Part shown: positions 22,228 through 42,941 of the stretch, one piece after another | Layout: each line of letters starts with the position of its first letter | How positions within the stretch are numbered: position 1 is the first letter of the stretch | From: Desulfatirhabdium butyrativorans DSM 18734 | Lineage (GTDB): Bacteria; Desulfobacterota; Desulfobacteria; Desulfobacterales; Desulfatirhabdiaceae | NCBI RefSeq assembly: GCF_000429925.1 | Contig: NZ_AUCU01000040.1 | Coordinates: 1 to 43,943, forward strand | DNA length: 43,943 nucleotides | Reading direction: 5' to 3' | Position numbers and translations under genes: made by a program | The notes under the pieces: generated by a model | Databases searched by the model: none | What the model saw: only the letters and a program-made list of their open reading frames with translations | What the model was told of the DNA's origin: nothing

Positions 22228-22237
22228 ATGCTTCGGG

Positions 22238-22266
22238 TTGACAACGACAGCCGCTCCCATTATGCT
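22238..22266 (+). promoter_or_regulatory. Sigma-70-type promoter of the phosphofructokinase gene
   Basis: TTGACA at 22238-22243 and TATGCT at 22261-22266 are separated by exactly 17 bases. The predicted transcription start is near 22273, about 33 bases before the chosen ATG at 22306, and a GGAGGA ribosome site lies at 22295-22300. Confidence 0.75.
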
Positions 22267-22305
22267 GACTCCGCTCATATCATCTTTTCCCCATGGAGGA
22301 CCAAT

Positions 22306-26930: not shown

Positions 26931-28238
26931 ATGCCGGAAAACGTCGTTCACATTGCAAAAGAAAAAACCACGACCTTCATCGACCGGGTGAAGGAAATCG
27001 TCCCGAACGCCAACCTGAGCCTCTGTCTCACCTGCGGCGCCTGCTCGTCGGGTTGCCCGGCATCGGGGCTCGAAAACATGGATCCCCGCAAATTCCTGCG
27101 TCTTGCCGTGCTGGGTCTGGATGAGGAAATCACGGAACACCCCTGGGTATGGATGTGCAGCATGTGTTATCGCTGCACCCATGCCTGCCCCATGAAGATC
27201 GACATTGCAGCACTCATTTACGAGGCGCGAAAACTCTGGCCGCGTGAAAAACGGCCCAAGGGGATTCTGGGCTCCTGCGACATGGCACTCAAAAATGACA
27301 GTTGCAGCGCCATGGGGACTCCCCAGGAAGATTTTCGCTTTGTCGTTCAGGATATGCTCGAAGAAGTGCGCGCCAACCAACCCGGATGGGAAGAGTTGCA
27401 GGCACCTATCGACAAGCAAGGGGCGCATTTCTTCCTGAGTCAAAACTCCCGCGAACCGGTCACCGAACCGGAGGAAATGGTTCCGCTGTGGAAGATTCTC
27501 CATATCGTCGGCGCAGACTGGACCTACAGCTGCACCGGCTGGGGCGGTGAGAACTACTGCATGTTCCTGGCCGACGACGAAGGGTGGAAAAAGATCACCA
27601 ACACCACCCTTCAAACCGCAAAGAACCTCGGCTGCAAGGTGTATCTCAACACCGAATGCGGTCATTCCACGTTCTCGGTATGGAAGGGGGCACAAAAACA
27701 CAAGATCGACACCGGACTCGAGATCGCGCCGATGGTCCAGTATTACGCCAGATGGATCCGGGAAGGAAAACTCAAGGTCAATGCCGATTGGAACAAGGAC
27801 CTGAAGGTGAAGTTTACGGTTCAGGATCCGTGCAACCAGGTTCGGAAAGGATGGGGAGACGCCCTGGCGGATGATCTGCGCTTTGTCACCATCGCCTGTG
27901 TCGGGGAAGAAAACTTCATCGATACCTACCCCAACAAGAGCAACAACTACTGCTGCGGCGGAGGCGGCGGGTATCTCCAGAGCGGATACCGGGAGGCCAG
28001 GCTTCATTATGGAAGACTCAAGCATGAACAGATCATGAAAACCGGTGCATCCTATGTCGTCACACCTTGTCACAATTGCCATGCCCAGATTCACGAACTC
28101 GGTGAACATTATGGCCACGGGAAATACCGAACCGTGCATCTGTGGACGATCATCGCCCTATCGTTGGGAATTTTGGCCGAAAACGAAAGGACCTACCTCG
28201 GCGACGATCTCAGGGAAGTGAATCTGCCGGGATATTGA
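26931..28238 (+). CDS. HdrC/HdrB-like (HdrD-type) iron-sulfur subunit
   Basis: A 435-residue cytoplasmic redox protein. Two 4Fe-4S motifs lie at Cys32-35-38-42 and Cys76-79-82-86, as in HdrC. A complete CCG motif (CX39CCX37CXXC) lies at Cys301, Cys341-342, Cys380 and Cys383, the ligand set of the noncubane clusters in HdrB/HdrD. The preceding half has only a degenerate CCG module (SCTGWGGENYC, NTECGHS), so one catalytic cluster rather than two is expected. The start at 26931 has GAGAAGGAG upstream; the frame runs back into the previous gene but that is not coding. It sits just ahead of HdrA and would pass electrons between HdrA and a disulfide or protein partner. Confidence 0.87.
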   Translation: MPENVVHIAKEKTTTFIDRVKEIVPNANLSLCLTCGACSSGCPASGLENMDPRKFLRLAVLGLDEEITEHPWVWMCSMCYRCTHACPMKIDIAALIYEARKLWPREKRPKGILGSCDMALKNDSCSAMGTPQEDFRFVVQDMLEEVRANQPGWEELQAPIDKQGAHFFLSQNSREPVTEPEEMVPLWKILHIVGADWTYSCTGWGGENYCMFLADDEGWKKITNTTLQTAKNLGCKVYLNTECGHSTFSVWKGAQKHKIDTGLEIAPMVQYYARWIREGKLKVNADWNKDLKVKFTVQDPCNQVRKGWGDALADDLRFVTIACVGEENFIDTYPNKSNNYCCGGGGGYLQSGYREARLHYGRLKHEQIMKTGASYVVTPCHNCHAQIHELGEHYGHGKYRTVHLWTIIALSLGILAENERTYLGDDLREVNLPGY

Positions 28239-28360
28239 TCGGGTCTTGGCTTGAACGTTGCAAGTTCCAATGTACAGGTTACAGGGTTCACAGGTCCAGG
28301 GCGAACAACAGCGCATATTGTCGATCAACGGCCCGGTCTATCCGTCCAGGCCGATTCAAG

Positions 28361-28427
28361 ATGGACTCGCAACCAGTCCATGAGTCTCCACCGAGCCGCA
28401 TGGGGGCGACCGACCGCTCGCCCCTAC
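28361..28427 (+). repeat. Fragment of the ~305-bp element plus palindrome
   Basis: ATGGACTCGCAA followed by GAGTCTCCACCGAGCCGCAT is the inverted match of the right end of copy B (38127-38432). It is fused to a GGGGGCGACCGACCGCTCGC-type palindrome at 28402-28427. This is probably a deleted third copy. Confidence 0.65.
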
Positions 28428-28507
28428 CGGCCGTGTTGGTTTTCACGATCAATGCACATGACAGGGTCGCCGCTCACCGCGTCTACAAAAAGGAGCAACT
28501 CATTGTC

Positions 28508-28576
28508 ATTCTGACTCCTGACTCCTGACTCCTGACCCCTGGCTTCTGACTTCTAACCCTGAACCCCTGAATCCTA
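28508..28576 (+). repeat. CTCCTGA heptanucleotide array upstream of hdrA1
   Basis: About nine heptamers: CTCCTGA three times, then diverged units such as CCCCTGG, CTTCTGA, CTTCTAA and CCCCTGA. The array ends some 17 bases before the hdrA1 start codon, close enough to affect leader-RNA structure. The 28239-28592 gap otherwise holds no gene. Confidence 0.88.
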
Positions 28577-28592
28577 TTGGAAAGGAAACCAT

Positions 28593-31500
28593 ATGGTCGA
28601 AGCCCTTCAACCCCCCATCGGAAGCGTCCTGGTTGTCGGCGGCGGCATCGGCGGCATCCAGGCGTCTCTGGATTTGGCCAATGCCGGCTATCTCGTTCAT
28701 CTGGTCGAAAGCAAACCCGCCATCGGCGGGGTGATGAGCACCCTCGACAAGACCTTTCCCACCAACGACTGCTCGATGTGTATCCTCTCGCCCAAACTCG
28801 TCGAGGTCGGACGGCACAAGAACATCCGCATTCATACGCTCTGTGACCTTCAATCCGTCGAGGGCGAGGCGGGTCGTTTCACCGCAACCCTACGAAACCG
28901 ACCCCGCTACATCGACAGCGAAAAATGCATCGCCTGCGGAAAATGCGCCGAAAAATGCCCGAAGAAGGTCCCCAATGCCTTCAACCAGGAACTGAACGAC
29001 CGAAAGGCGGCCTACGTCCTCTATCCCCAGGCCGTCCCGCTCAAGTATGCCATCGACGCAGACCACTGTATTTATTTCAAGAACGGAAAATGCCGCGCCT
29101 GCGAGAAATTCTGTCCGGCAAACGCCGTGGATTTCTCCCAGCAGGAGACGATCGAAACCGTCGATGTCGGTGCGGTGGTTCTCGCACCCGGCTTTCATGC
29201 CTACGATCCTTCCCATATCGTTCGTTACGGCTATGGCACCCTGAAGAACGTGGTGACGAGCATGGAATTCGAGCGGATTCTAAGCGCATCGGGTCCGTTC
29301 GAAGGCCACCTCGTCCGGCCGTCGGATCACCAGGAGCCCCGCAAGATCGCATGGCTTCAGTGCATCGGCTCACGGGACATCCGGGAAGACAGCCATCCCT
29401 ATTGTTCCGGCGTCTGCTGCATGTACGCCATCAAGGAGGCATTGGTCGCCAAGGAGCATGCCGGGGCCGAACTGGATACGGCCATCTTCTATATGGACAT
29501 GCGCACCCACGGGAAAGGCTTCGAGCAGACGTACAACCGAGCCAAGGAGGAAAGCGGAGTCCGCTTCATCCGGGCACGGGTACACTCGATCGAACCCGAA
29601 ACGGACGACCGGCTCAAGGTCACCTATGTCACCGATTCCGGACTTCCCCAGGATGAGGTTTTCGATCTTGTCGTTCTCTCCGTGGGCATGGAAATCGATG
29701 CCGCTACCCGAGAATTGGCTCGCAAACTCGACATTTCACTCGATGGAGACGGCTTCTGCCGGACCCATCCCTTCGCACCCGTGACCTCATCCCGCCCCGG
29801 GGTGTTCGTCTGCGGCGCTTTCGCAGGGGTAAAGGACATCCCCCAAACGGTCATGGAGGCATCGGCCGCTGCGGCCGGTGCAGCCGGGCTGCTCGCCACC
29901 GCTCGAAACACGGCCATCCCCTCCGAACAAAAGGGGGCCGAACCGTTGACGCTGGAGGACACCCCCCGCATCGGGGTCTTCATCTGTCATTGCGGCACGA
30001 ACATTGCGGGTGTCGTCGATGTTCAAGCCGTCAAGGCATATGCCGAAACGCTTCCGGATGTCGCCTTCGCAACCACGAACCTGTTCACCTGCAGCGCAGA
30101 CACCCAGGCATCCATCCGCCAGGCCATCGTCGACAACCGGCTGAACCGTGTCGTCGTTGCGGCCTGCACGCCCCGCACCCACGAGGCCCTGTTTCAGGAA
30201 ACCATCCAGGAAGCAGGGCTCAATCCCTATCTTTTCGAATTTGCCAACATCCGGGACCAAAACGCCTGGGTCCATCAGAACCAGCCGGAGGAAGCCACCC
30301 GGAAGGCCAAGGACCTGGTACGCATGGCTGTGGCCAAGGCGCGGTTGCTCGAGCCGATCGATCCGCTCTCCATTTCCGTCAACAAGAATGCCTTGGTGAT
30401 CGGGGGCGGTGCGGCCGGGATGAGTGCTGCACTGGGCCTGGCCGATCAGGGATTCGAAACCATACTGGTCGAACGAGATACGACGCTCGGCGGAAACGCC
30501 CGTCTCGTTCACCAAAGCTGGAACGGACATGCGGTAGCACCGCTGCTGGACGAAATGATCCAACGTGTCAGCATCCATCCGGCCATTCGGGTGTTGCATC
30601 AGTCCACCATTCAATCGGTCGAGGGATTTGTCGGCAATTTCGTTTCAACGGTGCAGACCCCGCAGGGGCTTCAACACATCGAACACGGAGCTGTCGTCGT
30701 GGCCACAGGCGCACACCCTTTCAGACCTGCCGAATACCTTTACGGCAGCCATCCGCGGGTGTCCATCTGGCATGAACTCGATGAACGCCTTGAATCCGAT
30801 CCGGCCGCACTCGCATCTGCAAAAGGGATCGCCTATATCCAGTGCGTCGGATCCCGTGAGCCCCAGCGGCCGGCCTGCTCGCGCATCTGCTGCACGGCAA
30901 CCCTGCAGAGCGCCATCCGATGGAAGACGGCCAAACCCGATCTGCGGGTCTTCGTTCTGTATCGGGACATCCGCTCCTACGGTCAGCGGGAGGCATTGTA
31001 TCAGCAGGCGCGAGAGCTCGGGGTGATCTTCATCCGATACGATCTCGAGCACAAACCGCAGGTGCAAGCCGATACCAACGGCGGTCTTCTCGTCACGGTG
31101 CATGACCCCATCCTGGATCGGCCCATCGAATTTCCCGTGGATTATCTCAATCTCGCAACCGCCATCGTGGCACCCGAGGGTCAGGAAACCCTGGCTCAGA
31201 TGCTCAAGGTGCCGCTGACCGAGGACGGGTTCTTCCTGGAAGCGCACGTCAAGCTGCGTCCCGTGGATTTTGCGACGGATGGGGTGTTCGTGTGCGGCCT
31301 GGCGCATTATCCCAAGTCCATCGACGAATCGATCGCCCAGGGGCAGGCTGCGGCTGCAAGGGCTGCCACCCTTCTCGTTCAGGAAACCATCGATATCGCA
31401 CCGATCGTTTCGGTGGTGAACGAGGACAAGTGCATCGGGTGCGGCTTGTGTGAAGCTTCCTGTTCATTTGGAGCCATCCGGCTGAAGAAGGTGGTCGGCA

Positions 31501-31649
31501 AAGGCTACCGGGCGGAGAACCTGTCTGCCCTGTGCAAAGGGTGCGGGGTGTGTGCGGCGTCCTGTCCTCAGCAGGCCATCGACATGAAACATTTCCGGAA
31601 GCAGCAGATCGAGGCGGCCATCTGCGCCAGGGCTGTGGCCGGGGCTTGA
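28593..31649 (+). CDS. hdrA: HdrA-like flavoprotein, fused double-module form (1018 aa)
   Basis: HdrA is the FAD/Fe-S core that splits or merges electron pairs in heterodisulfide reductase complexes. This chain carries two FAD modules. Module 1 (1-445) has VVGGGIGGIQ (residues 14-23), the HdrA-specific NDCSMC (59-63 region) and two 4Fe-4S sites (Cys112-115-118-122; Cys159-167-170-174). Module 2 (about 460-1018) begins with the HdrA N-domain (VFICHCGTNIAG), has a second VIGGGAAGM near 598, a CVGSRE...CSRICC segment and two C-terminal ferredoxin motifs (CIGCGLCEASC near 945, CKGCGVCAASC near 980). Classical HdrA is about 650 residues, so this is an extended version. It follows the HdrC/B-like gene and precedes an MvhD gene. 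Confidence 0.92.
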   Translation: MVEALQPPIGSVLVVGGGIGGIQASLDLANAGYLVHLVESKPAIGGVMSTLDKTFPTNDCSMCILSPKLVEVGRHKNIRIHTLCDLQSVEGEAGRFTATLRNRPRYIDSEKCIACGKCAEKCPKKVPNAFNQELNDRKAAYVLYPQAVPLKYAIDADHCIYFKNGKCRACEKFCPANAVDFSQQETIETVDVGAVVLAPGFHAYDPSHIVRYGYGTLKNVVTSMEFERILSASGPFEGHLVRPSDHQEPRKIAWLQCIGSRDIREDSHPYCSGVCCMYAIKEALVAKEHAGAELDTAIFYMDMRTHGKGFEQTYNRAKEESGVRFIRARVHSIEPETDDRLKVTYVTDSGLPQDEVFDLVVLSVGMEIDAATRELARKLDISLDGDGFCRTHPFAPVTSSRPGVFVCGAFAGVKDIPQTVMEASAAAAGAAGLLATARNTAIPSEQKGAEPLTLEDTPRIGVFICHCGTNIAGVVDVQAVKAYAETLPDVAFATTNLFTCSADTQASIRQAIVDNRLNRVVVAACTPRTHEALFQETIQEAGLNPYLFEFANIRDQNAWVHQNQPEEATRKAKDLVRMAVAKARLLEPIDPLSISVNKNALVIGGGAAGMSAALGLADQGFETILVERDTTLGGNARLVHQSWNGHAVAPLLDEMIQRVSIHPAIRVLHQSTIQSVEGFVGNFVSTVQTPQGLQHIEHGAVVVATGAHPFRPAEYLYGSHPRVSIWHELDERLESDPAALASAKGIAYIQCVGSREPQRPACSRICCTATLQSAIRWKTAKPDLRVFVLYRDIRSYGQREALYQQARELGVIFIRYDLEHKPQVQADTNGGLLVTVHDPILDRPIEFPVDYLNLATAIVAPEGQETLAQMLKVPLTEDGFFLEAHVKLRPVDFATDGVFVCGLAHYPKSIDESIAQGQAAAARAATLLVQETIDIAPIVSVVNEDKCIGCGLCEASCSFGAIRLKKVVGKGYRAENLSALCKGCGVCAASCPQQAIDMKHFRKQQIEAAICARAVAGA

Positions 31650-31665
31650 GAACCTGGATGTGAAT

Positions 31666-32034
31666 AGTCGGCAGTAGGCAGTCGGCAGTGGGCAGTGTGG
31701 ATCTTTACTTCTGCCATAGGCCAGAAGGGAGATCGGATTTTTATTACCTGGAACGGCGAATCCCCTTTGGCCAGGCGCATTTATCGGAGTGATTTGCGCT
31801 GCATTACGTTGAGCGGAGATTGCTGGAATTGGAAGCCGGCGGAAAATGGTTTTTTCGCAAGCCTGCGGAAAGCGTTTTGGCGAGCAAAGGCGGACTTTCT
31901 CGAGCGGAGGGGGTTCGGCTGTTTGATGAAGAGCCGAATCCCCCGGAGCGGTTCAGAAAATCAAAGGGGTTTTTGACAACGGGTTTATCCTGCCGACTGC
32001 CCACTGCCGACTGCCGACTGCCGACTGCCCACTA
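31666..32034. repeat. Heptamer arrays in inverted orientation around a ~290-bp spacer
   Basis: Left array 31666-31696 is built of GGCAGTC/GGCAGTG units. Right array 31990-32034 is built of ACTGCCG/ACTGCCC units, the reverse complement. The spacer contains no gene that I can support, although short frames exist on both strands. The block fills the gap between hdrA1 and the first mvhD and looks like an inserted noncoding element. Confidence 0.75.
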
Positions 32035-32078
32035 TTTATTGTGAACCACGAACCCCTCGAAAGAAAGCGACGGTGACC

Positions 32079-32828
32079 ATGGACAACACGTACCAGCCTA
32101 CGATTCTGGCGTTTCTCTGCAACTGGTGTGCCTATGCCGGTGCGGACCTGGCCGGGGTTTCCCGGCTTCAGTACCCGCCCACCTTCCGGGTGATCCGCAC
32201 CATGTGTTCGGGCCGGGTGGACCCGCTCTTCGTTCTCAAAGGTCTTACGGAAGGCTACGACGGGGTCTTCATCGGCGGATGCCATCCGGGCGATTGCCAC
32301 TACCAGGACGGAAACCTCTATACGATCAAACGGGTCGAGATGCTCCAAATCCTGCTCGATCTGGCCGATATCGGCAGAAACCGCATCCACCTGCAATGGG
32401 CCAGCGCAGCCGAAGCCCAGACCTATGCAGAAAGCGTTCGCACCTTCTCCACCACCATTTCCCAACTCGGCCCCTTCGATCCCTCGGCCTTCGGCCTGGA
32501 GCTTGCGGGCTGCACCCGTGCGGTTTCCTCCCAGCGGCTCCGCTGGCTGGTCGGTATCGACCGCCAGGTCACCGAACGGTCAAACGTCTACGGCGTCCAG
32601 ATCGACCCCGAGCTCTTTCAGCGCACCCTGCAGGAGGCCGTCACCGCCGAATACCAGAAAGGTCTGATCCAGGAAGTCTTGTGCCAGTCGCCCGCATCGG
32701 TTCCCACCCTCTCCGAGCGCACCCGTCTCGATGTGTACACCGTCTCCCAGCGATTGAACGAGCTCGAACGCATCGGACTCGCCGAGCTGGCCGGTCATGA
32801 AGGCCATACCCCCATCTTTCGCCAATGA
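32079..32828 (+). CDS. mvhD: MvhD-like [2Fe-2S] subunit with extra C-terminal domain
   Basis: MvhD is the small iron-sulfur adaptor that docks a hydrogenase, formate dehydrogenase or other electron source to HdrA. The N-terminal 140 residues are a normal MvhD domain with Cys14 and Cys17 (FLCNWCAYAGADLAG), MCSGRVD, and GGCHPGDCHY. About 110 further residues follow. They include a helical segment and ERTRLDVYTVSQRLNELERI, which looks like a winged-helix recognition unit, then a short wing-like end. Typical MvhD ends at about 140-150 residues. The start may be this ATG or the GTG at 32073. The gene lies between the two hdrA genes, 21 bases before the second. Confidence 0.87.
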   Translation: MDNTYQPTILAFLCNWCAYAGADLAGVSRLQYPPTFRVIRTMCSGRVDPLFVLKGLTEGYDGVFIGGCHPGDCHYQDGNLYTIKRVEMLQILLDLADIGRNRIHLQWASAAEAQTYAESVRTFSTTISQLGPFDPSAFGLELAGCTRAVSSQRLRWLVGIDRQVTERSNVYGVQIDPELFQRTLQEAVTAEYQKGLIQEVLCQSPASVPTLSERTRLDVYTVSQRLNELERIGLAELAGHEGHTPIFRQ

Positions 32829-32849
32829 AGCCATGAGAAAGGAACGCAT

Positions 32850-35800
32850 ATGACCCAACAGCAACCCCCCATCGGCAGTGTCATGGTGGTCGGCGCCGGT
32901 GTGGCCGGTATTCAAGCCTCCCTCGATATGGCCAACGCTGGCTATTACGTCTATCTCGTAGACAATTCCACGACCGTCGGCGGTCTGATGGCCCAGCTCG
33001 ACAAGACCTTTCCGACGAACGACTGCGCGATGTGTGTCATTTCCCCGTTTCTGGTGGAAGTCGGTCGGCACCTCAACATCGAGATCATCTCGAACAGCGA
33101 GGTCGAATCCGTTGAAGGCAATGTCGGCGCCTTTCAGGTGACGCTTCGAAACGACCCGCGCTACATCGATATCGACAAATGCACGGCCTGCGGGCAGTGC
33201 CGCATGGTCTGCCCGGTGACGGCCATCAATGAATTCGACTGCGGCCTCGACTTGAGAAAAGCCACCTACATCCGCTATCCCCAGGCTGTTCCGCTCGCCT
33301 ACGCCATCGACCGATCCGTATGTATCGGCTGCGGGCTCTGCGAGAAGGTCTGTCTGGCCGAAGCCATTCAGTACGACGAATCCCCCCGAAAGACCACCCT
33401 CGACGTCGGTGCTGTGGTGCTCGCCATGGGAAGTGCGACAGCCGATCCCAAACGGCTCGACAGCCTTGCTTACGGCAAACACCCGAACATCGTCACCAGC
33501 CTCGAGTTCGAACGGATTCTGAGCGCATCGGGCCCCTACAAAGGGCACCTCATGCGGCCCTATGACCGGAAAATTCCGGAAAAAATCGCCTGGATGCAAT
33601 GCGTGGGCTCCCGGGATATCAACCGGGCTGAAAGGGGCTATTGCTCTTCGGTTTGCTGCATGTACGCGATCAAGCAGAGCATCATCGCAAAGGAACATGT
33701 CTCGAGTCCGCTCGACACGGCCATCTTCTATATGGACATGCGCACCTACGGGAAGGACTTCGACAAATACTACATGCGGGCCAAAAACGAAAAGAACGTC
33801 CGCTTCATCCGCTCCCGGGTGCACACCATCGAACCGACGGATACCGGAGACCTGAAGATCCGCTATGTCCTCGAATCGGGGGACATTCAGGAAGAGACGT
33901 TCGATCTCGTGGTGCTTTCGGTCGGTCTCTCCCCGTCTTCGGCAGCCGTCGATTTGGCCGAACGCCTCGGCCTCGACCTGAACGAATACCGCTACATCAA
34001 GACTTCCGATACATCCCCCGTTTCGACCAGCCGACCGGGGATTTATGTATGCGGCTCCTTTCAGGCACCGAAGGACATCCCCCAGTCCGTCATGGAGGCA
34101 TCGGCAGCGGCAGCCGAGGCCACCCACAACCTCTCCGAAGCCCGATGGACGAAAACGAAGGTCAAGGACCTGCCGCCCGAAAAGGATTTTTCTGCGGAAC
34201 CGCCCCGGATCGGGGTCTTCGTCTGCAACTGCGGCATCAACATCGGTGGCGTGGCCAATGTTCCGGAAGTCCGGGAATACGCCAGAACCCTTCCCCATGT
34301 CGTTCATGTCGAGGACAACCTCTTCACCTGTTCCCAGGACACCCAGGAAAAAATCAAGCAGGTCCTGATCGAAAAAGGGATCAACCGGGTCGTCGTGGCC
34401 TCCTGTTCTCCCCGCACCCACGAGCCCCTCTTCCAGGAGACGATCCGGGAAGCCGGGTTGAACAAATACCTGTTCGAAATGGCCAATATCCGCGACCAGA
34501 ACACCTGGGTGCACATGAATTCCCCGGAGAAGGCCACGGCCAAGGCCAAGGACCTCGTCCGCATGGCCGTGGCCAAGGCGGCTTACGTCGAGCCGCTGCC
34601 TCAGGTCATCCTGAACGTGGTGCCGTCGGTGTTGGTGGTGGGCGGAGGGGTGGCCGGGATGGAAGCCGCCCTCGGCGTGGCCAACCAGGGCTATCAGGCC
34701 TATCTGGTCGAGCGCAGCAACCAGTTGGGCGGGATGGCTCACCAGCTCAAATCGACCTGGCAGGGTGAACCCGTAGAAGCCTATCTGAAGCAGCTCATCC
34801 AAGATGTCGAGAAGAACGAGCGCATTCAGGTCTTTCTTGAAACCGAGGTGACCCACGTCACCGGAACCATCGGCAATTTCACGACGACCCTCGTCACCAA
34901 AACCGGCGGCGCATCTGGCGTCCAGAAGATGCTCCAGCACGGTGCAGCGATTTTGGCGACCGGCGCCCATGAATACAAGCCCACGGAATACCTCTATGGG
35001 AAACACCCGAATGTGCTGACACACCTCGATTTCGATCAGGCGGCCAAAGATCGGGATCCCCGCATCCTCGAAGCCAGGAGCGCGGTGTTCATCCAGTGCG
35101 TCGGTTCCCGAACGACCGAACGGCCCTATTGCAGTCGGGTCTGCTGTGCCCATGCGCTGAAAAGCGCCCTCTGGCTCAAGGCCATCCAGCCCGAGATGCG
35201 CATCTTCATCCTCTATCGGGATATCCGTTCCTACGGCTTCCGGGAATCGCTCTACCAGAAAGCGCGTGAGGCAGGCATTCAGTTTATCCGCTGGGATCCG
35301 GAAAACCCGCCGGTGGTCGAAACCCTCGATGCCGAGGCAAAAGGCGAAGGCTTCGCCCCATTGGCCGTCACCGTAACGGATCACATTCTGGGCCGACCGA
35401 TTCAGATTCGGACGGATCTGGTGGTGCTGGCTGCAGCCATCGTGGCCAACGAAAACAAGAAGCTCTTCGAGGCGTTCAAGGTCCCGACCAACGCCGACGG
35501 CTTTCTGGTGGAAGCGCACGCCAAACTGCGACCCGTGGATTTTGCATCCGAAGGGCTCTTTCTCGCCGGGCTCGCCCATTATCCCAAGACGATCGACGAA
35601 AGCATCGCCCAGGCCAAGGCTGCGGTCTCCCGAACCATGAACATCGTATCGAAGCCGGGCATCATGGTCGGAAGCGTTGTGGCCACGGTTCAGGGCGAGC
35701 GCTGCGCCGTTTGCCTCACCTGCGTGCGGACCTGCCCGTATGGCGTTCCCCGCATCGATCCGGAAAAGGGCCATGCCGTGATCGAGGCCGTCGAATGTCA

Positions 35801-35909
35801 CGGCTGCGGGGTGTGCGCCTCCGAATGCCCGGGAAAGGCCATTACGCTCAAGCATTTCACGGACGAGCAGATCAATGCCAAGACCCATGCTCTCTTTTGC
35901 GCTGCATAA
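32850..35909 (+). CDS. hdrA: HdrA-like flavoprotein, second fused double-module copy (1019 aa)
   Basis: A paralogue of the HdrA at 28593 with the same layout and clearly the same ancestry. Module 1 has VVGAGVAGIQ, NDCAMC and Fe-S motifs CTACGQCRMVCP and CIGCGLCEKVC. The latter has regular spacing, unlike the CX7CX2CX3C of copy 1. Module 2 starts with VFVCNCGINIGG near residue 452, followed by the FAD loop VVGGGVAGME near 594, CVGSRTTERPYCSRVCC, and C-terminal ferredoxin motifs CAVCLTCVRTCP near 951 and CHGCGVCASECP near 982. It is followed by mvhD, metV and metF with overlapping or near-contiguous starts, so it is the likely HdrA of a methylene-tetrahydrofolate reductase complex. Confidence 0.93.
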   Translation: MTQQQPPIGSVMVVGAGVAGIQASLDMANAGYYVYLVDNSTTVGGLMAQLDKTFPTNDCAMCVISPFLVEVGRHLNIEIISNSEVESVEGNVGAFQVTLRNDPRYIDIDKCTACGQCRMVCPVTAINEFDCGLDLRKATYIRYPQAVPLAYAIDRSVCIGCGLCEKVCLAEAIQYDESPRKTTLDVGAVVLAMGSATADPKRLDSLAYGKHPNIVTSLEFERILSASGPYKGHLMRPYDRKIPEKIAWMQCVGSRDINRAERGYCSSVCCMYAIKQSIIAKEHVSSPLDTAIFYMDMRTYGKDFDKYYMRAKNEKNVRFIRSRVHTIEPTDTGDLKIRYVLESGDIQEETFDLVVLSVGLSPSSAAVDLAERLGLDLNEYRYIKTSDTSPVSTSRPGIYVCGSFQAPKDIPQSVMEASAAAAEATHNLSEARWTKTKVKDLPPEKDFSAEPPRIGVFVCNCGINIGGVANVPEVREYARTLPHVVHVEDNLFTCSQDTQEKIKQVLIEKGINRVVVASCSPRTHEPLFQETIREAGLNKYLFEMANIRDQNTWVHMNSPEKATAKAKDLVRMAVAKAAYVEPLPQVILNVVPSVLVVGGGVAGMEAALGVANQGYQAYLVERSNQLGGMAHQLKSTWQGEPVEAYLKQLIQDVEKNERIQVFLETEVTHVTGTIGNFTTTLVTKTGGASGVQKMLQHGAAILATGAHEYKPTEYLYGKHPNVLTHLDFDQAAKDRDPRILEARSAVFIQCVGSRTTERPYCSRVCCAHALKSALWLKAIQPEMRIFILYRDIRSYGFRESLYQKAREAGIQFIRWDPENPPVVETLDAEAKGEGFAPLAVTVTDHILGRPIQIRTDLVVLAAAIVANENKKLFEAFKVPTNADGFLVEAHAKLRPVDFASEGLFLAGLAHYPKTIDESIAQAKAAVSRTMNIVSKPGIMVGSVVATVQGERCAVCLTCVRTCPYGVPRIDPEKGHAVIEAVECHGCGVCASECPGKAITLKHFTDEQINAKTHALFCAA

Positions 35910-35927
35910 ATCAGGGAGAATCGCCGA

Positions 35928-36377
35928 ATGAGTGAAACCTTCGAACCGACACTGATCGCATTCTGCTGTAAATACTGTGCCTATGCCGCGGCGGATCTGG
36001 CCGGCTCCATGCGCCTGAACTACCCGAGCAACGTCAAGATCACCCAGGTCCCTTGCACCGGCAGGGTGGACATCATCCATCTGCTGAAAGCCTTCGAGGA
36101 TGGGGCGGACGGCGTCTATGTCGCCGGGTGTATGGAAGGAGACTGTCACTTCGTGTCCGGGAACCTGAAGGCGAAGAAGCGGGTCGCCTATGTCAAGAAG
36201 ACCCTGGAGGAAATCGGAATCGAGCCCGACCGGATCGATATGTTCAATCTAAGCTCTGCCATGGGTCCGAGGTTTGCCGAGATCGCCATCGAAATGACCG
36301 ATCGCATCCGAAAACTCGGCCCCACCCCGCTGACCGCGTCTTCGGAAACCTGCTCAGCCAAGGAAGGAACGCCATGA
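35928..36377 (+). CDS. mvhD: MvhD-like [2Fe-2S] subunit
   Basis: A 149-residue protein of normal MvhD length. Ligand cysteines are seen in FCCKYCAYAAADLAGS, VPCTGRVD and AGCMEGDCHF. It transfers electrons between HdrA and an NAD(P)H-, formate- or hydrogen-linked partner in known complexes. GGGAGAA precedes the start, 18 bases after hdrA2, and its TGA overlaps the metV ATG (ATGA). This tight packing ties it to HdrA2 and MetVF. A trailing Cys in the tail (SETCSAKE) is not part of the usual ligand set. Confidence 0.93.
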   Translation: MSETFEPTLIAFCCKYCAYAAADLAGSMRLNYPSNVKITQVPCTGRVDIIHLLKAFEDGADGVYVAGCMEGDCHFVSGNLKAKKRVAYVKKTLEEIGIEPDRIDMFNLSSAMGPRFAEIAIEMTDRIRKLGPTPLTASSETCSAKEGTP

Positions 36378-37048
36378 TCGTCGCCGATCGAAAATCCATT
36401 CATGAAATTCTGGATATGGTGAAAGACTGCTCGAACATCCTCGTGGTGGGATGCAAGGGCTGTGTGACCGTCTGCAATGTCGGCGGTCTGAAAGAAGTGC
36501 AGATCTTGGCCGCTACCCTGAAAATCGCACGCAAGAAGGAAGGCCGTCCCCTGCAAGTGGACGAAGCCCTGCTCGAGCGCCAGTGCGACCCGGAATACAT
36601 CGCCATGATTCAGGATCGCGTCAACGATTATGAGGCCGTCATCTCCATGGCCTGCGGCGTCGGCCCCCAGTTTCTCTCCGAAGCCTACCCGAACCAGCGC
36701 TTCTATCCGGCCGTCAACACGACCTTTTTCGGCGGGGCCGTCGCTCACGGCATCTGGGAGGAGCGCTGCGCCGGTTGCGGCACTTGCATCATCCATCATT
36801 TCGACGGCTTGTGTCCGATCGCCCGCTGTTCCAAGAGCCTCATGAACGGCCCCTGCGGCGGCTCCGATCATGGCAAGTGCGAAATCGCCAAAACCGTTGA
36901 CTGCATCTGGGACAAGATCGTCCGAAAGAAAATGGAGCAGGGACGCCTGAACGATCTGCTGCAGGTGTTCCCTGCCAAGAACTGGCAGACCGCCCGGGAC
37001 GGAGGTCCTCGAAGAAGCCGAAGGGAGGAATTGATCCAAAATGGATGA
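36374..37048 (+). CDS. metV: MetV, Zn/Fe-S subunit of methylene-tetrahydrofolate reductase
   Basis: A 224-residue protein of the MTHFR C-terminal/zinc-finger family (MetV), which partners MetF in acetogens. Cys-rich segments are CKGCVTVC (27-34), ACGVGPQ, and the distal CAGCGTC, CPIARC, GPCGG and CEI series, consistent with a zinc site and Fe-S clusters. AAGGAAGG precedes the start and the end overlaps the metF start by eight bases. In Moorella, MetV links MetF to HdrABC-MvhD; the same order here (HdrA-MvhD-MetV-MetF) supports the same kind of complex. Some annotations call this the methylenetetrahydrofolate reductase C-terminal domain protein. Confidence 0.92.
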   Translation: MIVADRKSIHEILDMVKDCSNILVVGCKGCVTVCNVGGLKEVQILAATLKIARKKEGRPLQVDEALLERQCDPEYIAMIQDRVNDYEAVISMACGVGPQFLSEAYPNQRFYPAVNTTFFGGAVAHGIWEERCAGCGTCIIHHFDGLCPIARCSKSLMNGPCGGSDHGKCEIAKTVDCIWDKIVRKKMEQGRLNDLLQVFPAKNWQTARDGGPRRSRREELIQNG

Positions 37049-37976
37049 TCTCAAATCGGGAAGCAATCTGGAGAAAGTACTCAAAGCCGGTCACTTCGCC
37101 TTCACGGGAGAATGCGGTCCTCCCAAAGGCGCCAATGTCGAGCATCTGCGCGAGAAATTCCGCCACCTGAAGGGAGTGGTCGATGCCGTCAACGTGACGG
37201 ACAACCAGACGGCCGTCGTGCATCTGTCGAGCTGGGCCGCGTCGGCCATCATGGTGCAGGAAGGGGTTGAGCCGAATTTTCAGATGGTCTGCCGGGATCG
37301 CAACCGGCTGGCCATGCAGTCGGACATCCTCGGCGTATACACGATGGGTGTCCGCAACATGCTGTGCCTCTCCGGCGACCACCAGAAGTTCGGCAACCAC
37401 CCCCAGGCCAAGAACGTCTACGACATCGATTCGATGCAGCTCATTTCTCTCGTCAAGAAAATGCGGGACGAAGGGAAATTTTTCAATGACGATCCGATCG
37501 ACGTTCCGCCCAGACTCTTCATCGGAGCCGCATCCAATCCCTTCGCGGAACCCTACGAATTCCGGGTCTATCGGCTCGCCAAAAAAATCGCCGCAGGCGC
37601 CGATTTCGTTCAGACCCAGTGTATCTACAACATGGAACGGTTCCGGGAGTTCATCCGTCAGGCCAACGATATGGGACTGACCGAAAAATGTTACATCCTG
37701 GCCGGAGTCACACCGATGAAAAGCGTCGGTATGGCCAACTACATGGCCAAGCAGGTTCCCGGAATGGATGTGCCCGAATCGCTGATCAAACGCCTCAAGG
37801 GGGTTGAAAAGAACAAGGTCGCAGAAGAAGGCATCCGGTTCTGCCTCGAGCAGATCGAGGAATTCAAGACGATGAAAGGGGTGGCCGGGGTGCATCTGAT
37901 GGCCATCGAATGGGAACATCGGGTTCCGGAGATCGCCGAACGGGCGGGATTGCTGCCGAGGCCCGTCATCGAATAA
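37041..37976 (+). CDS. metF: Methylene-tetrahydrofolate reductase MetF
   Basis: A 311-residue FAD-binding TIM-barrel enzyme that interconverts methylene-H4F and methyl-H4F, the central step of the methyl branch of the Wood-Ljungdahl pathway. Motifs include FTGECGPPKGAN near the start (with the family's catalytic Glu), VNVTDNQTA, CRDRNRLAMQSD (the usual CRD segment), LCLSGD, and DFVQTQCIYNM. The length is typical. As in acetogens, it is coupled to metV and lies in an hdrA-mvhD operon instead of standing alone. It probably works in the oxidative direction in a complete oxidiser or the reductive one in an autotroph; the sequence does not decide. Confidence 0.94.
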   Translation: MDDLKSGSNLEKVLKAGHFAFTGECGPPKGANVEHLREKFRHLKGVVDAVNVTDNQTAVVHLSSWAASAIMVQEGVEPNFQMVCRDRNRLAMQSDILGVYTMGVRNMLCLSGDHQKFGNHPQAKNVYDIDSMQLISLVKKMRDEGKFFNDDPIDVPPRLFIGAASNPFAEPYEFRVYRLAKKIAAGADFVQTQCIYNMERFREFIRQANDMGLTEKCYILAGVTPMKSVGMANYMAKQVPGMDVPESLIKRLKGVEKNKVAEEGIRFCLEQIEEFKTMKGVAGVHLMAIEWEHRVPEIAERAGLLPRPVIE

Positions 37977-38510: not shown

Positions 38511-41500
38511 ATGAAGGTCAGTCGAAGAGGGTTCTTGAAGATTTCCGGCGCTGTCGCAGCTGGAATGGCGGTCGGATCGATGGGATTCGATTTACAGCCG
38601 GTCAAGGTCCATGCCCAGATGCTCAAGACCCGCTATGCCAAGGAGACCACCACGATCTGCTGCTACTGCGGGGTCGGATGCGGCGCCCTCGTTCATACCA
38701 GCAAGAAGGGAGACGGCCGCATCATCAACATCGAAGGCGATCCGGATCATGTCATCAATCGAGGGGCACTCTGTTCCAAGGGAGCGGCCCTCAAGGGACT
38801 TGCCGAAAACACGAATCGTCTTCTCAATCCGATGTACCGTGCACCGTTTTCCGACAAATGGGAGGAAGTCTCCTGGGACTGGGCCATTGACCGAATCGCC
38901 CAGCGCGTCAAGAAGACCCGGGATGCTTCTTTCATGAAGCGCAATGCAGCAGGCCAGGTGGTGAATCGCACCGAAGCGATCGCATCGGTCGGAAGCGCCG
39001 CCTTCGACAACGAGGAATGCTGGATCTATCAGGCCCTGATGCGCGCCCTCGGCCTGGTCTACATCGAACATCAGGCGAGACTCTGCCATAGTTCGACCGT
39101 TGCCGCACTTGCCGAATCGTTCGGTCGCGGCGCCATGACAAACCATTTCATCGACATGAAAAACAGCGACTGCATTCTGGTCATGGGCAGCAATGCGGCA
39201 GAGACCCACCCCATCTCCTTTAAATGGGTAACCGAGGCCCAGCGAAAAGGCGCCACCCTCATCAGTGTCGATCCAAGATTTACCCGAACCTCCGCCAAGG
39301 CGGACATCTATGCCCCGCTGCGCTCCGGGACGGACGTGGCCTTTTTGGGTGGAATGATCCGGTATATCCTCGAAAACGGGCTTTACCACAAGGATTATGT
39401 ATTGCACTACACCAACGCCACCCTGTTGCTCAACCCGGAATATCGGTTCGAAAAGGGCCTTTTTGCCGGATTCGATCCCAAGACCCGAAAGTACGACCAG
39501 TCCAAATGGGCCTTCCAGCTTGATGCCGAGGAAAAGCCTAAACGGGATATGTCGCTGAAAGACCCCTTGTGCGTGTTCAACCAGTTGAAGAAACACTATT
39601 CCCGCTACGATCTAAAGACCGTCTCTTCCGTTACCGGCACGAGCGAAGCGGATTTACTGGCCGTTTACAAGGCCTTTACCGCAACTGGCAAACCCGACAA
39701 GGCAGGCACCATCCTCTATGCCATGGGATGGACCCAGCATACCATCGGGGTTCAGATCATCCGGACCATGACCATCGTTCAATTGCTTCTGGGAAATATC
39801 GGCATGGCAGGAGGCGGGGTAAACGCCCTTCGCGGAGAGTCGAACGTACAGGGATCGACGGACCATGCACTTCTGTACCATATCTATCCGGGATACCTCG
39901 GCGTTCCAACGGCCAAGGCACAAAAGCTTGCCGATATCTTAAGTCGCAGGCCCAAGAGCAAGGACCCCTTGAGTCTCAACTGGTGGCAGAATGAACCCAA
40001 ATACATCGTGAGTTTCCTCAAGGCGATGTTCGGCGATCAGGCAACCGCCGAAAACGAATTCGGCTACCCCTGGATGCCGAAACTCGAGGACGGAAAGGCG
40101 TATTCCTGGCTCGATCTCTTCGATGAAATGTACAAGGGATCGATCAAGGGACTGTTCGCCTGGGGCATGAATCCCGCCTGCAGCGGAGCCAACAGCAACA
40201 AGACCCGAAAGGCGCTGGCCAATCTCGAATGGCTGGTCAACGTGAATCTCTTCGACAACGAAACCGGCTCTTTCTGGAAGGGGCCGGGGATGAAACCGGG
40301 GGATATCGGAACCGAAGTCTTCATGCTGCCGGCCTGCGTATCGGTCGAAAAAGAAGGCAGCATCACCAACAGCGGACGCTGGATGCAATGGCGCTATGCC
40401 GGTCCCAACCCGCTCGGCAACAGCCGTCCCGACGGAGACATCATCCTGGAGCTCGGACTCAAGCTGAAGGAAATTTACCAGAAAGAAGGCGGGGTCTTCC
40501 CGGATCCGATCCTGAACCTGAAATGGGATTATATGAGCCAGGGGAAGTACGACCCGCACAAGGTCGCCAAAATCATCAACGGCACCTTCACCCGGGACGT
40601 CAAGATCGGAGATAAGGAATTCAAGGCCGGCAAACAAGTACCTTCCTTCGCCTTCCTGCAGGCGGACGGCAGCACGGCCTGCGGCAACTGGATCTATTCC
40701 GGCAGCTATACGGATGCCGGAAACATGGCCGCACGTCGCAAAACGAATGACGCGGTGAACCAGATCGGACTCTATCCGGAATTCGCCTGGGCCTGGCCGG
40801 TCAACCGTCGGATTCTCTACAACCGGGCGTCCGTCGACCTGAAGGGTCAGCCTTTCGATGCCAAACGCTGGGTCATGAAATGGGAAGGCGACAAATGGAT
40901 CGGCGATATACCGGACGGTCCGGCACCGCCCCTTGCCGATGCGCAAGGAAACCCCAACCCGAACGGAAAGCATCCCTTCATCATGACCCTGCACGGCTTC
41001 GGCCAACTGTTCGGCCCTGGATTGAAAGACGGCCCGTTTCCGGAACATTATGAAGCCATGGAATGCCCGATCGAGAAGAATCCGCTGAGCGATCAGCTTC
41101 ACAGCCCCACCGTTCCGATGTATGCCTCGGCTGCAGATCAGTTTGCCGCTACCTGCGATCCGAAATATCCCTATGTCTGCTCGACCTACCGGGTATCGGA
41201 GCACTGGCAGACGGGTCTGATGACCCGGCCGCAGCCTTGGCTGTTGGAACTCCAGCCCCAGGTCTTCGTCGAAATGAGCGAGGAGCTGGCCAAACTCAAA
41301 AACATTCAGAACGGCGAGCGGGTCATCGTCAGCACCGTCAGAGGCTCTCTGGAAGCCACAGCCATTGTCACCAAGCGGTTCAGGCCGATGAAGATTGCAG
41401 GCACCCTCGTCTATCCCATCGGTCTGCCGTACAACTACGGCTGGCGCTGGCCGGCATCCGGCACCGAGGAAAGCGCCAATCTGCTGACGGCCTCCACCGG

Positions 41501-41561
41501 CGATTCCAACACCCGGATTCCGGAAACCAAGACGTTCATGGCGAACGTTTCCAAGAAATGA
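38511..41561 (+). CDS. fdhA: Tat-exported formate dehydrogenase, catalytic subunit, Cys form
   Basis: A 1016-residue molybdenum/tungsten bis-pyranopterin enzyme of the FdnG/FdoG family, oxidising formate to CO2. A twin-arginine signal (SRRGFLKI, residues 4-11) sends it to the periplasm. The 4Fe-4S ligands are Cys50, Cys53, Cys57 and Cys88. The active-site loop reads ARLCHSSTV, with Cys192 (codon TGC at 39084) where E. coli FdnG has selenocysteine, and the conserved His193. GRGAMTNH, YALGWTQH, GGGVNALRGESNVQG and LNRRILYNRAS-type motifs match FdnG throughout. A strong AAGGAGGT site precedes the ATG. A chain this long with no gaps points to a functional, non-selenium isoform. Confidence 0.95.
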   Translation: MKVSRRGFLKISGAVAAGMAVGSMGFDLQPVKVHAQMLKTRYAKETTTICCYCGVGCGALVHTSKKGDGRIINIEGDPDHVINRGALCSKGAALKGLAENTNRLLNPMYRAPFSDKWEEVSWDWAIDRIAQRVKKTRDASFMKRNAAGQVVNRTEAIASVGSAAFDNEECWIYQALMRALGLVYIEHQARLCHSSTVAALAESFGRGAMTNHFIDMKNSDCILVMGSNAAETHPISFKWVTEAQRKGATLISVDPRFTRTSAKADIYAPLRSGTDVAFLGGMIRYILENGLYHKDYVLHYTNATLLLNPEYRFEKGLFAGFDPKTRKYDQSKWAFQLDAEEKPKRDMSLKDPLCVFNQLKKHYSRYDLKTVSSVTGTSEADLLAVYKAFTATGKPDKAGTILYAMGWTQHTIGVQIIRTMTIVQLLLGNIGMAGGGVNALRGESNVQGSTDHALLYHIYPGYLGVPTAKAQKLADILSRRPKSKDPLSLNWWQNEPKYIVSFLKAMFGDQATAENEFGYPWMPKLEDGKAYSWLDLFDEMYKGSIKGLFAWGMNPACSGANSNKTRKALANLEWLVNVNLFDNETGSFWKGPGMKPGDIGTEVFMLPACVSVEKEGSITNSGRWMQWRYAGPNPLGNSRPDGDIILELGLKLKEIYQKEGGVFPDPILNLKWDYMSQGKYDPHKVAKIINGTFTRDVKIGDKEFKAGKQVPSFAFLQADGSTACGNWIYSGSYTDAGNMAARRKTNDAVNQIGLYPEFAWAWPVNRRILYNRASVDLKGQPFDAKRWVMKWEGDKWIGDIPDGPAPPLADAQGNPNPNGKHPFIMTLHGFGQLFGPGLKDGPFPEHYEAMECPIEKNPLSDQLHSPTVPMYASAADQFAATCDPKYPYVCSTYRVSEHWQTGLMTRPQPWLLELQPQVFVEMSEELAKLKNIQNGERVIVSTVRGSLEATAIVTKRFRPMKIAGTLVYPIGLPYNYGWRWPASGTEESANLLTASTGDSNTRIPETKTFMANVSKK

Positions 41562-41575
41562 AGGGAGGTAGGTGA

Positions 41576-42301
41576 ATGGAAAAGGCATTCTTGATCGACA
41601 CGACCCTGTGCACGGCCTGTCGGGGCTGCCAGGTCGCCTGCAAGCAATGGCATGATCTGCCGACCGAAATCACGAAGAACCGCGGGACATACGAAAACCC
41701 GGCCGATTTGTCCTTCAACACCTACAAGCTCGTTCGCATGCGGGAGACGGTAGTGGACAACCGGCTGCGCTGGCTTTTCTTCCCGGAGCAATGCCGCCAT
41801 TGCCTCTCACCGCCCTGTCAGGATACGGCGGGGGAGCCCGGTGCCATCTATACGGACCCGGCGACCGGTGCCGTGCTCTACACGGCCGAAACCCGATTTC
41901 TGAAAGCCGACGACATCATTGCCTCCTGTCCGTACAACATCCCCCGTAAATCCGAAGACGGAACGCTCGCCAAATGCGACATGTGCAACGATCGGGTCCA
42001 CAACGGCCTGCTGCCGGCATGTGTACAGACATGCCCGACGGGCGCGATGACGTTCGGAGACCTGGACAAAATCCGCAAGCTCGCTGACGAGCGGCTTGCC
42101 GAAGTTCGAAAGAAATTCCCGAAAGCCGTCCTGGTGGACCCGGACGACGTTCGGGTCATTTATCTCACTCCCTTCGATCCGAAGCTGAGCTTCGAGCATG
42201 CCATCGCCGAGGCGGGCCCCGTCGGCCTGACCCGCCATCTGGCGCTCCGGAAAATGACTCGGCCGCTGACCTCGGTTCTCGAAGGCATTCGGAACGTTTG
42301 A
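41576..42301 (+). CDS. fdhB: Formate dehydrogenase, iron-sulfur beta subunit
   Basis: A 241-residue ferredoxin-like subunit that takes electrons from the catalytic subunit. It has four Cys clusters: CTACRGCQVAC (Cys12-15-18-22), CRHCLSPPC, SCPYNIPRK, and CDMCNDRV with CVQTCPTGA. It lacks its own signal peptide, as is usual for such subunits, and probably leaves the cell folded with FdhA by the Tat route. There is no C-terminal membrane anchor like that of FdnH, and no cytochrome b or c gene follows, so the pair resembles the soluble periplasmic FdhAB of Desulfovibrio that reduces cytochrome c3. GGGAGGT precedes the start, 14 bases after fdhA. Confidence 0.93.
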   Translation: MEKAFLIDTTLCTACRGCQVACKQWHDLPTEITKNRGTYENPADLSFNTYKLVRMRETVVDNRLRWLFFPEQCRHCLSPPCQDTAGEPGAIYTDPATGAVLYTAETRFLKADDIIASCPYNIPRKSEDGTLAKCDMCNDRVHNGLLPACVQTCPTGAMTFGDLDKIRKLADERLAEVRKKFPKAVLVDPDDVRVIYLTPFDPKLSFEHAIAEAGPVGLTRHLALRKMTRPLTSVLEGIRNV

Positions 42302-42388: not shown

Positions 42389-42414
42389 CAGGGGCACGGC
42401 TTGCCGTACCCCTG
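42389..42414 (+). terminator. Hairpin between fdhB and the third mvhD (possible attenuator)
   Basis: CAGGGGCACGG and CCGTACCCCTG pair over 11 bases with one mismatch around a four-base loop. No U-run follows, so it is a weak candidate for termination; a processing or REP-like site is equally possible. Confidence 0.45.
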
Positions 42415-42464
42415 TGAACATATCGGTTCAACAGAAGATTATTGAAACAACGCAGGAGGAATTT

Positions 42465-42941
42465 ATGACCGACTGGAAACCGAAAATCGTTACGTTTTTA
42501 TGCAACTGGTGCACGTACGGAGCCGCAGACCTGGCGGGTGTGAGCCGATTGCAATATCCTCCCTACATCCGAGTGATCCGGGTGCCCTGCAGCGGCCGGG
42601 TCAGCCCGAAATTCATCCTGAGCGCCTTCATGCAGGGCGCGGATGGGGTATGGGTATCGGGATGCCATCCGGGAGACTGCCATTACATCGAGGGAAATTT
42701 CTACGCCCGCCGCAAGTTCGCCTTGATGAAGAATCTGCTGGAGCATACGGGCATTGAACCGGGAAGACTGCATTTCTCCTGGATTTCATCTGCAGAAGCC
42801 ACCAAATTCGCGGACATGGCCCGCCATGTTTGCCAGACCGTGGAAGCCCTGGGGCCGATACGACGGATGGTCAAAACCGGAAGAACACCTTCCGCCACGA
42901 CGGCTTGCCCTGGCGAGGGATGTGCTTGTTGTTGCGGGTAG
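42465..42941 (+). CDS. mvhD: MvhD-like [2Fe-2S] subunit, third copy
   Basis: A 158-residue MvhD-family protein. Cysteines are seen in FLCNWCTYGAADLAG, VPCSGRVS and SGCHPGDCHY, most like the MvhD at 32079 but without its extra domain. The chosen ATG has AGGAGGA (42454-42460) at ideal spacing; the frame opens earlier at 42414 but lacks such a site. The C-terminus is an unusual Cys/Gly tail (CPGEGCACCCG). It follows the periplasmic formate dehydrogenase genes by 163 bases. MvhD proteins are cytoplasmic, so it would not contact FdhAB directly and more likely serves one of the HdrA proteins. Confidence 0.9.
   Translation: MTDWKPKIVTFLCNWCTYGAADLAGVSRLQYPPYIRVIRVPCSGRVSPKFILSAFMQGADGVWVSGCHPGDCHYIEGNFYARRKFALMKNLLEHTGIEPGRLHFSWISSAEATKFADMARHVCQTVEALGPIRRMVKTGRTPSATTACPGEGCACCCG

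Follow-up and report, generated by a model that had tools for sequence, protein, structure and literature searches.

For acetogens as for sulfate reducers, it is still being asked which electron partners serve the methylenetetrahydrofolate (methylene-H4F) reductase MetVF where it is coupled to Hdr proteins. The question arises again in Desulfatirhabdium butyrativorans DSM 18734, whose contig NZ_AUCU01000040.1 was analysed here as a whole (the window, 43943 bases). Between positions 26931 and 37976 of the + strand it carries seven genes, for a fused HdrC/B-like protein (HdrCB), a double HdrA (HdrA1), MvhD1, a second double HdrA (HdrA2), MvhD2, MetV and MetF, and Pfam or NCBIfam matches back every one of these names. 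What do two HdrA proteins do beside one MetVF, and do the seven products form one machine or two complexes? An original prediction had raised this choice after describing the same genes in the same order on one strand, with one HdrC/B-like protein for two HdrA, and this description was borne out, as was an Hdr-coupled MetVF with two double HdrA.

The most interesting property of the array escaped that prediction: the array seems to be the cysteine (Cys) twin of a selenocysteine (Sec) array. Very probably the window holds the Cys isoform. As a full explanation, a selenium-independent, all-Cys isoform of an Hdr-coupled methylene-H4F reductase/methyl-H4F dehydrogenase appears probable, with less assurance. 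In what follows G denotes a genome (G000 being the source genome), C a contig and L a locus; residues and coordinates refer to the window.

A probable selenocysteine twin

HdrCB was searched against 192 genomes of the class. Among the matches listed, many relatives have one in-frame TGA and the nearest have none. Four close copies (64-100% identical) exist in the source genome itself, where the window's copy is free of TGA and the other three have one each. Contig C68 of the same genome carries a paralogous array in the order HdrA1-MvhD1-HdrA2-MvhD2-HdrCB-MetV-MetF, with one in-frame TGA in every gene ahead of MetV. These TGAs align exactly with Cys of the window proteins: C63 of HdrA1, C70 of MvhD1 (counted from base 32073), C62 of HdrA2, C17 of MvhD2 and C246 of HdrCB (counted from base 26922). 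The window thus has Cys, and no in-frame TGA, at all five Sec sites of selenoprotein families, and the site in HdrA is the equivalent of methanogen Cys197. Passages of PMC13188914 list the matching families and motifs, namely HdrA CxxU, MvhD CxxU and Fe-S oxidoreductase UGH. The TGA codons of C68 would be read as Sec, and the genome has a tRNA-Sec that scores 77.1 bits where the cut-off is 47, which 5 of 14 control genomes also pass. One further candidate selenoprotein, a MetF-like match at L042:13322-14197, was rejected: its '*', three residues before the aligned end, reads as the gene's own stop. Our literature search, which covered titles, abstract starts and passages with few subscription papers, found no description of paired all-Sec/all-Cys Hdr-MetVF arrays.

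Distribution of Cys and Sec arrays

A longer scan list yielded 80 named MetF loci as its best, with titles of the Desulfobacterota type (Desulfobacterales, Desulfobacteraceae, 'Deltaproteobacteria' and similar) and one just 'Proteobacteria'. Among 131 loci examined (L039-L169), 25 rows have two HdrA pieces (long C-terminal parts) upstream of MetF. Once duplicates are removed (L083=L058, L110=L156, L133=L162) and the window is included, two-HdrA MetVF arrays in Desulfobacterota-type genomes number at least 23: 9 Cys and 14 Sec. Across these 23 arrays the readable sites are all-or-none, with Cys in every Cys array and TGA in every Sec array; truncation at contig ends leaves some of the five sites of several arrays unreadable, no HdrCB appears in L124, and a frame break interrupts L160. 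Arrays with a single HdrA mix the two states, an HdrCB with TGA standing beside a Cys HdrA in, for example, L099, L102 and L111. Gene order also follows the type: HdrCB comes first in 7 of 9 Cys arrays, the remaining two being cut upstream, and 13 of the 14 Sec arrays have it after MvhD2 and before MetV.

Sixteen genomes picked for closeness to the window were searched with HdrA2. Ten have a Cys array together with a Sec-type HdrA2 (G000, G010, G161, G046, G142, G120, G159 and G192-G194), which makes 10 of 10 genomes with a Cys array; three have a Sec two-HdrA array and no intact Cys array (G016, G053, G095), three have neither, by coordinates, and none has the Cys array alone. Contig breaks split the Cys array in G120 and in G159 and the Sec array in G095, and the Sec arrays of G192-G194 were seen as HdrA matches alone. 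Scattered pieces of HdrA1, GltD, MetV (74%) and MetF (82%), near one another in L165 (G016 C184, 10348-12520), resemble a decayed array; this genome keeps its Sec array.

Use of the Cys array under selenium shortage has, in our estimate, an even chance of being right. We put forward only tentatively the wider reading that Desulfobacterota hold two complete and separately assembled two-HdrA bifurcating methyl-H4F machines, a version with Sec in five subunits and an all-Cys one, switched as a whole by selenium supply; in the Sec version, Sec would include the cluster ligand that bridges both halves of each HdrA.

Origins of the arrays

Are the two arrays versions of one enzyme? In a tree of 106 HdrA rows, made by a quick method without bootstrap and with a long-branch warning, HdrA1 of Cys arrays and HdrA1 of Sec arrays are sister clades, with a support of 99 in the Shimodaira-Hasegawa-like approximate likelihood ratio test (SH-aLRT). 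HdrA2 of Cys arrays groups with single-HdrA arrays; HdrA2 of Sec arrays does so too, but in a separate clade. Joining all HdrA2 (20 rows against 46) is rejected by the approximately unbiased (AU) test at p 2.8e-82; the test used 66 of the 106 rows, long or near-duplicate rows having been removed by hand, and the tested group was set by array membership after the first tree. As HdrA1 forms one clade and HdrA2 two lineages, HdrA1-MvhD1 stands beside MetVF cores of two origins. This arrangement leans towards a shared function, or one functional unit; the same tree pattern would result if the HdrA2-MvhD2-MetV part had been swapped in one array.

The divergence of the cores fits another explanation, which we rate as a serious one, though somewhat short of even: Cys and Sec arrays would be two enzymes with differing electron partners or opposite directions, and Cys or Sec would follow redox tuning with no selenium switch. 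MetV of Sec arrays is 44-47% identical to that of the window, against 75-81% for Cys arrays, and HdrA2 of Sec arrays 52-56% (56% within the source genome); gene order differs as described. A third MvhD-type gene (MvhD3) lies within the array or at most ~6.4 kb behind MetF in all 7 Cys arrays that have at least 560 contig bases past MetF (window included), and behind none of 13 Sec arrays that have at least 1.3 kb there, most having just 1.4-2.1 kb. Two separate enzymes sit less well with the joint change of all five sites, and the adjacent formate dehydrogenase splits likewise: FdhA of the window has Cys192, and at E <= 1e-50 the genome yields just one further match, on C48 (79% identical), with TGA at this position.

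Double HdrA proteins and bifurcation

HdrA1 and HdrA2 were mapped against the solved HdrA structures 5odc, 8rvu and 7bkb, which gave three matching stretches each. Residues ~10-435 are a thioredoxin reductase (TrxR) module with an inserted ferredoxin (module 1), residues ~450-600 match the HdrA N-terminal domain, and a second TrxR module (module 2) spans residues ~595-1010; it lacks the inserted ferredoxin and has the C-terminal one. As predicted, each protein has two flavin adenine dinucleotide (FAD) modules, with GxGxxG in all four FAD-type Rossmann folds, and several 4Fe-4S motifs. Both remain below the curated cut-off of 1100 bits for NCBIfam HdrA2 (NF040770), with 991.3 and 956.4 bits for HdrA1 and HdrA2. 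In methanogens, one HdrA lends its Cys197 as a ligand to the N-terminal cluster of its HdrA partner (PMC9012536). Its equivalents, C63 and C62, both lie in module 1; at the module 2 position HdrA1 has Ala, and the aligned stretch of HdrA2 is without Cys. Since module 1 gives the Cys197 equivalent and the N-terminal cluster domain precedes module 2, each chain looks like its own dimer partner, a single-chain pseudo-dimer. Passages of PMC9012536 describe such a fused layout for HdrA3/4 of anaerobic methanotrophic (ANME) archaea and note it for Moorella HdrA.

The bifurcation residues of methanogen HdrA are E356 and K409 (PMC9430772). Module 1 has both, as E227/K281 in HdrA1 and E221/K275 in HdrA2, and module 2 has D730/Q772 and D729/K771. 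With the pair complete in module 1 alone, two of the four FAD sites look bifurcating. The prediction of up to four FAD sites therefore stands for the folds and not for four bifurcating sites. Among readable rows of other arrays, both module 1 residues are invariant in HdrA1 (8/8 Cys, 13/13 Sec) and in HdrA2 (9/9 Cys, 15/15 Sec). In module 2 of HdrA2, the E position holds D in 9/9 Cys rows and A, G, S or T in 15/15 Sec rows, and the K position holds K in 7/9 and 15/15. In module 2 of HdrA1, Cys arrays have E in 4/8 rows and K in 2/9, and Sec arrays a gap at the E position in 12/13, so that the second module may keep part of the signature in some relatives.

Whether real bifurcation takes place seems to us evenly poised. 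HdrA1 and HdrA2 might instead be non-bifurcating and do no more than wire quinone- or formate-linked carriers to MetVF, as the incomplete pair of module 2 would allow. Washed membranes of Sporomusa ovata, moreover, reduced methylene-THF with H2 and without co-reduction of ferredoxin or NAD(P), according to passages of PMC9430772. The invariance of E and K in module 1 speaks against this alternative, which we regard as possible and on balance doubtful.

Some side observations concern HdrA. Relative to the solved HdrA and to HdrA2, cluster motif 2 in the inserted ferredoxin of HdrA1 (residues ~159-175) is longer by five residues between its first and second Cys. A separate short gene corresponding to the first ~130 HdrA residues (Rossmann part, Cys197 motif, one 4Fe-4S motif) occurs in L043, L054, L055, L058, L062, L064, L065, L067 and L070, often adjoining MvhD3. 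It has a TGA at the Cys197 site in L043 and L055, and in L043 frames named by eye as NuoE/F-like come next.

A possible electron inlet

In relatives of the window (L053, L042, L057, L067 and others) a GltD/NfnB-like insert of ~460 residues interrupts the HdrA ferredoxin; neither HdrA1 (1018 residues) nor HdrA2 (1019 residues) of the window has one. Without this NAD(P)H-binding module the pyridine-nucleotide coupling that had been predicted finds no support here. Passages of PMC9430772 give an NADH activity of 0.5 U/mg for the GltD-free HdrA of S. ovata, versus 190 U/mg for Moorella. The 80 named loci less 3 duplicates leave 77. A single long HdrA precedes MetF in 48 of them, two do so in 8 and none in 21, several of the last being short contigs. 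The insert is present in 25 of the 48 (23 are without it or cut) and in 4 of the 8, contigs cut inside HdrA being counted as without GltD. Where two-HdrA arrays have it, it sits in HdrA1; its presence there in some relatives and its absence here point to an interchangeable electron inlet.

Other subunits

HdrCB combines two 4Fe-4S motifs of the HdrC cluster type with one clear CCG domain and one degenerate. It has one PF02754 stretch, and the HdrB profile TIGR03288 matched at positions 133-271 of 290 alone. Scores of 171.4, 164.1 and 117.2 bits against HmcF, TmcB and DsrK (cut-offs 750, 735 and 400) mark it as a relative, not a member, of these families, and its predicted model (mean predicted local distance difference test score, pLDDT, 76) matches structures of EtfD, HdrB and LutA. 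For one single cell of a marine Chloroflexi, an HdrC-HdrB fusion within a MetVF cluster has been reported, and some sulfate reducers are reported to have the fusion as well (passages of PMC5736913). MvhD1, MvhD2 and MvhD3 score 162.7, 171.8 and 180.4 bits against PF02662 (FlpD), above the gathering cut-off of 22.3. MvhD1 has a C-terminal extension of ~110 residues with a predicted winged-helix-like fold, for which Foldseek matched SmtB/CzrA-type repressors at E 0.018 or weaker only; the extension aligns to its end in 27 MvhD1 rows (filter: >215 aligned residues).

One machine or two complexes

We moderately favour one joined machine over two complexes. Two complexes sharing a locus would be HdrCB-HdrA1-MvhD1, working with thiols and ferredoxin, and HdrA2-MvhD2-MetVF, the methylene-H4F reductase. 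They are suggested by the 48 of 77 named loci (some cut by contig ends) in which MetF lies behind a single long HdrA and MvhD2, by stretches of L059, L063 and L069 that hold HdrCB, HdrA and MvhD3 without MetVF, and by the 374-base repeat-bounded segment that parts HdrA1 from MvhD1 in the window. Against them, HdrA1-MvhD1 adjoins HdrA2-MvhD2-MetVF in Cys and Sec arrays alike despite their differing HdrA2 lineages, the whole set switches between Sec and Cys jointly, and HdrCB of most Sec arrays stands between MvhD2 and MetV and not beside HdrA1. We consider this alternative rather unlikely, and the predicted choice between two complexes and one machine leans, by the trees, to one functional unit. 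In S. ovata, pulldowns linked MetV and MetF with HdrA, HdrB and MvhD without a tight complex (passages of PMC9430772).

Six points weigh against a joined, selenium-independent and bifurcating isoform as the full explanation. Each of the SECIS-like (selenocysteine insertion sequence) stems behind the C68 TGAs is weak by itself, at roughly one standard deviation below shuffled sequences. The HdrA2 lineages of Cys and Sec arrays are old and distinct, and may differ in partner or substrate, beyond selenium. Module 2 of both HdrA is without the full bifurcation pair. Without GltD, a Moorella-type NAD(P)H site is unavailable. S. ovata showed no bifurcation despite the signature in one of its HdrA modules (passages of PMC9430772), which weakens any firm claim of bifurcation. 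Finally, the genes share a strand as predicted, but gaps of 354 bases (HdrCB-HdrA1) and 423-429 bases (HdrA1-MvhD1), the second holding the inverted repeat, could divide the operon.

Should the joined machine exist, MetF would act on methyl-H4F/methylene-H4F, and MetV would feed electrons into HdrA2-MvhD2, the core found next to MetVF whether an array has one HdrA or two. HdrA1-MvhD1 would be a second flavin unit for electron input or output, with GltD (for NAD(P)H) in some relatives and without it here, and HdrCB a thiol/disulfide-type outlet. The FADs of the N-modules would divide electrons between, or combine them from, ferredoxin and the methyl-H4F couple at ~-200 mV. In a sulfate reducer the likely direction would be methyl oxidation, and autotrophic reduction would also be possible. 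The paired all-Sec and all-Cys arrays offer a natural experiment, with five homologous Sec/Cys swaps in one machine; if the pairing has this meaning, the selenium response would directly test which subunits make one unit.

Genomic setting

The source genome (4.48 Mb, 97.3% complete) has DsrA (631.6 bits, above the cut-off, which 0 of 14 control genomes pass) and a CdhC domain, from which we infer a sulfate reducer with carbon monoxide dehydrogenase/acetyl-CoA synthase (CODH/ACS). It holds at least five MetV-MetF pairs: that of the window, L040 (C68), L041 (C9), L042 (C12) and L050 (C71). Each of the four others adjoins an MvhD match (only 35% identical in L050) and three adjoin a long HdrA.

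Features of the window, with the evidence for each assignment
Feature	Position	Strand	Basis
Omptin-like protein, upstream of array	2328-3341		
DHH/DHHA1 protein with CBS domains, upstream of array	15968-17269		
Phosphofructokinase-domain protein, upstream of array	22228-24468		
AlgH-like DUF179, upstream of array	24461-25033		
HdrC-HdrB fusion (HdrCB; DsrK/TmcB/HmcF-like)	26931..28238	+	domain motifs, profiles, predicted fold
HdrA1, double HdrA, 1018 residues	28593..31649	+	structure alignment, Fe-S motifs
Inverted repeat, HdrA1-MvhD1 gap	31663..32036	.	35-nucleotide arms, 91% complementary, 7-nucleotide units
MvhD1 with C-terminal winged-helix-like extension	~32079..32828	+	Pfam, predicted fold
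HdrA2, double HdrA, 1019 residues	32850..35909	+	structure alignment, Fe-S motifs
MvhD2	35928..36377	+	Pfam
MetV	~36374..37048	+	PF12225
MetF	37041..37976	+	PF02219
FdhA, formate dehydrogenase-N type, twin-arginine translocation (TAT) signal, Cys192	38511..41561	+	profile matches
FdhB, 4Fe-4S subunit	41576..42301	+	profile matches
MvhD3	42414..42941	+	Pfam; same type in or behind other Cys arrays

Downstream of MetF follow FdhA with its TAT signal, FdhB and the third MvhD; FdhA scores 1466.4 bits against formate dehydrogenase-N alpha (TIGR01553, cut-off 814.2). The inverted repeat consists of heptameric CTGCCGA-like tandem units enclosing a segment of ~300 bases, 374 bases overall. This stretch has 108 matches genome-wide, nearly all short pieces, and in L054, the array of G010, the aligned pieces of HdrA1 and MvhD1 lie less than 50 bases apart. 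CTGCCGA-like heptameric repeats also occur at 8581-8625, and 14-nucleotide tandem repeats (CTGACTC units) at 28511-28552 in the HdrCB-HdrA1 gap. Upstream of HdrCB, the second half of 26245-26916 seems, by eye, to encode a short protein (GTHDECDRWL-like motif) with similar ones in L053, L054 and L074; this frame had zero Pfam matches. An Rfam scan of the window at gathering scores gave no match, and a signal scan gave 3 promoter-like sites against 6.4 expected and 24 terminator-like sites against 18.9.

Comparison with known systems

Two flavins per HdrA had to be rejected as a novelty: two-flavin HdrA are already known from Moorella, Sporomusa and ANME archaea (PMC9430772 and PMC9012536, in passages). 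MetVF-HdrCBA-MvhD of Moorella thermoacetica likewise clusters MetV, MetF, MvhD, a two-TrxR-module HdrA and HdrB/C functions (passages of PMC9430772). It has, as predicted, one HdrA, but this protein of 1487 residues combines two TrxR modules, each with E/K, and a GltD insert; its HdrB and HdrC are separate proteins (PMC9430772). The window, by comparison, has two HdrA, no GltD, the E/K pair complete in module 1 alone, a fused HdrCB and a nearby third MvhD. It therefore shares with the Moorella subtype MetV/MetF beside HdrA and MvhD, and lacks both the GltD insert and a separate HdrB, with two CCG domains, and HdrC. HdrCBA-MvhD-MetVF of S. ovata is closer in its GltD-free HdrA with E/K in one of two TrxR modules; it differs in a single HdrA of 942 residues with just one additional TrxR module and in separate HdrB and HdrC (passages of PMC9430772). 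The same source describes an HdrA homologue with two flavin sites and proposed tandem bifurcation, which resembles the window's HdrA in the two sites and differs in that both are said to have the signature and in having no MetVF.

The ANME HdrA (3/4, 5/6, 12/13) are fused pairs with complementary Cys197 and N-terminal domain, and tandem HdrA and HdrD-like genes cluster; HdrA9-11 have an NfnB insert, like the GltD insert of the window's relatives (PMC9012536). Their module order differs, the N-terminal HdrA bearing the N-terminal domain (PMC9012536), and in the ANME-1 genomes covered by passages of that paper MetF is not clustered with HdrA. Among sulfate reducers, Seep-SRB1g has Hdr genes adjoining metF and two adjacent HdrABC sets; the passages of PMC10553843 give no Sec/Cys pairing or double-HdrA anatomy. 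Desulfobacterium autotrophicum is also a sulfate reducer; passages of PMC2702500 contain no paired all-Sec/all-Cys MetVF arrays, but they describe loci for HdrA1-4, HdrL1-3 (HdrL being an HdrA/glutamate-synthase fusion), HdrD and MvhD, a tandem hdrL/hdrA locus, Sec in HdrA, HdrL, HdrD4 and MvhD, and Sec/Cys paralogues in each Hdr group, for which a swap under selenium limitation was proposed.

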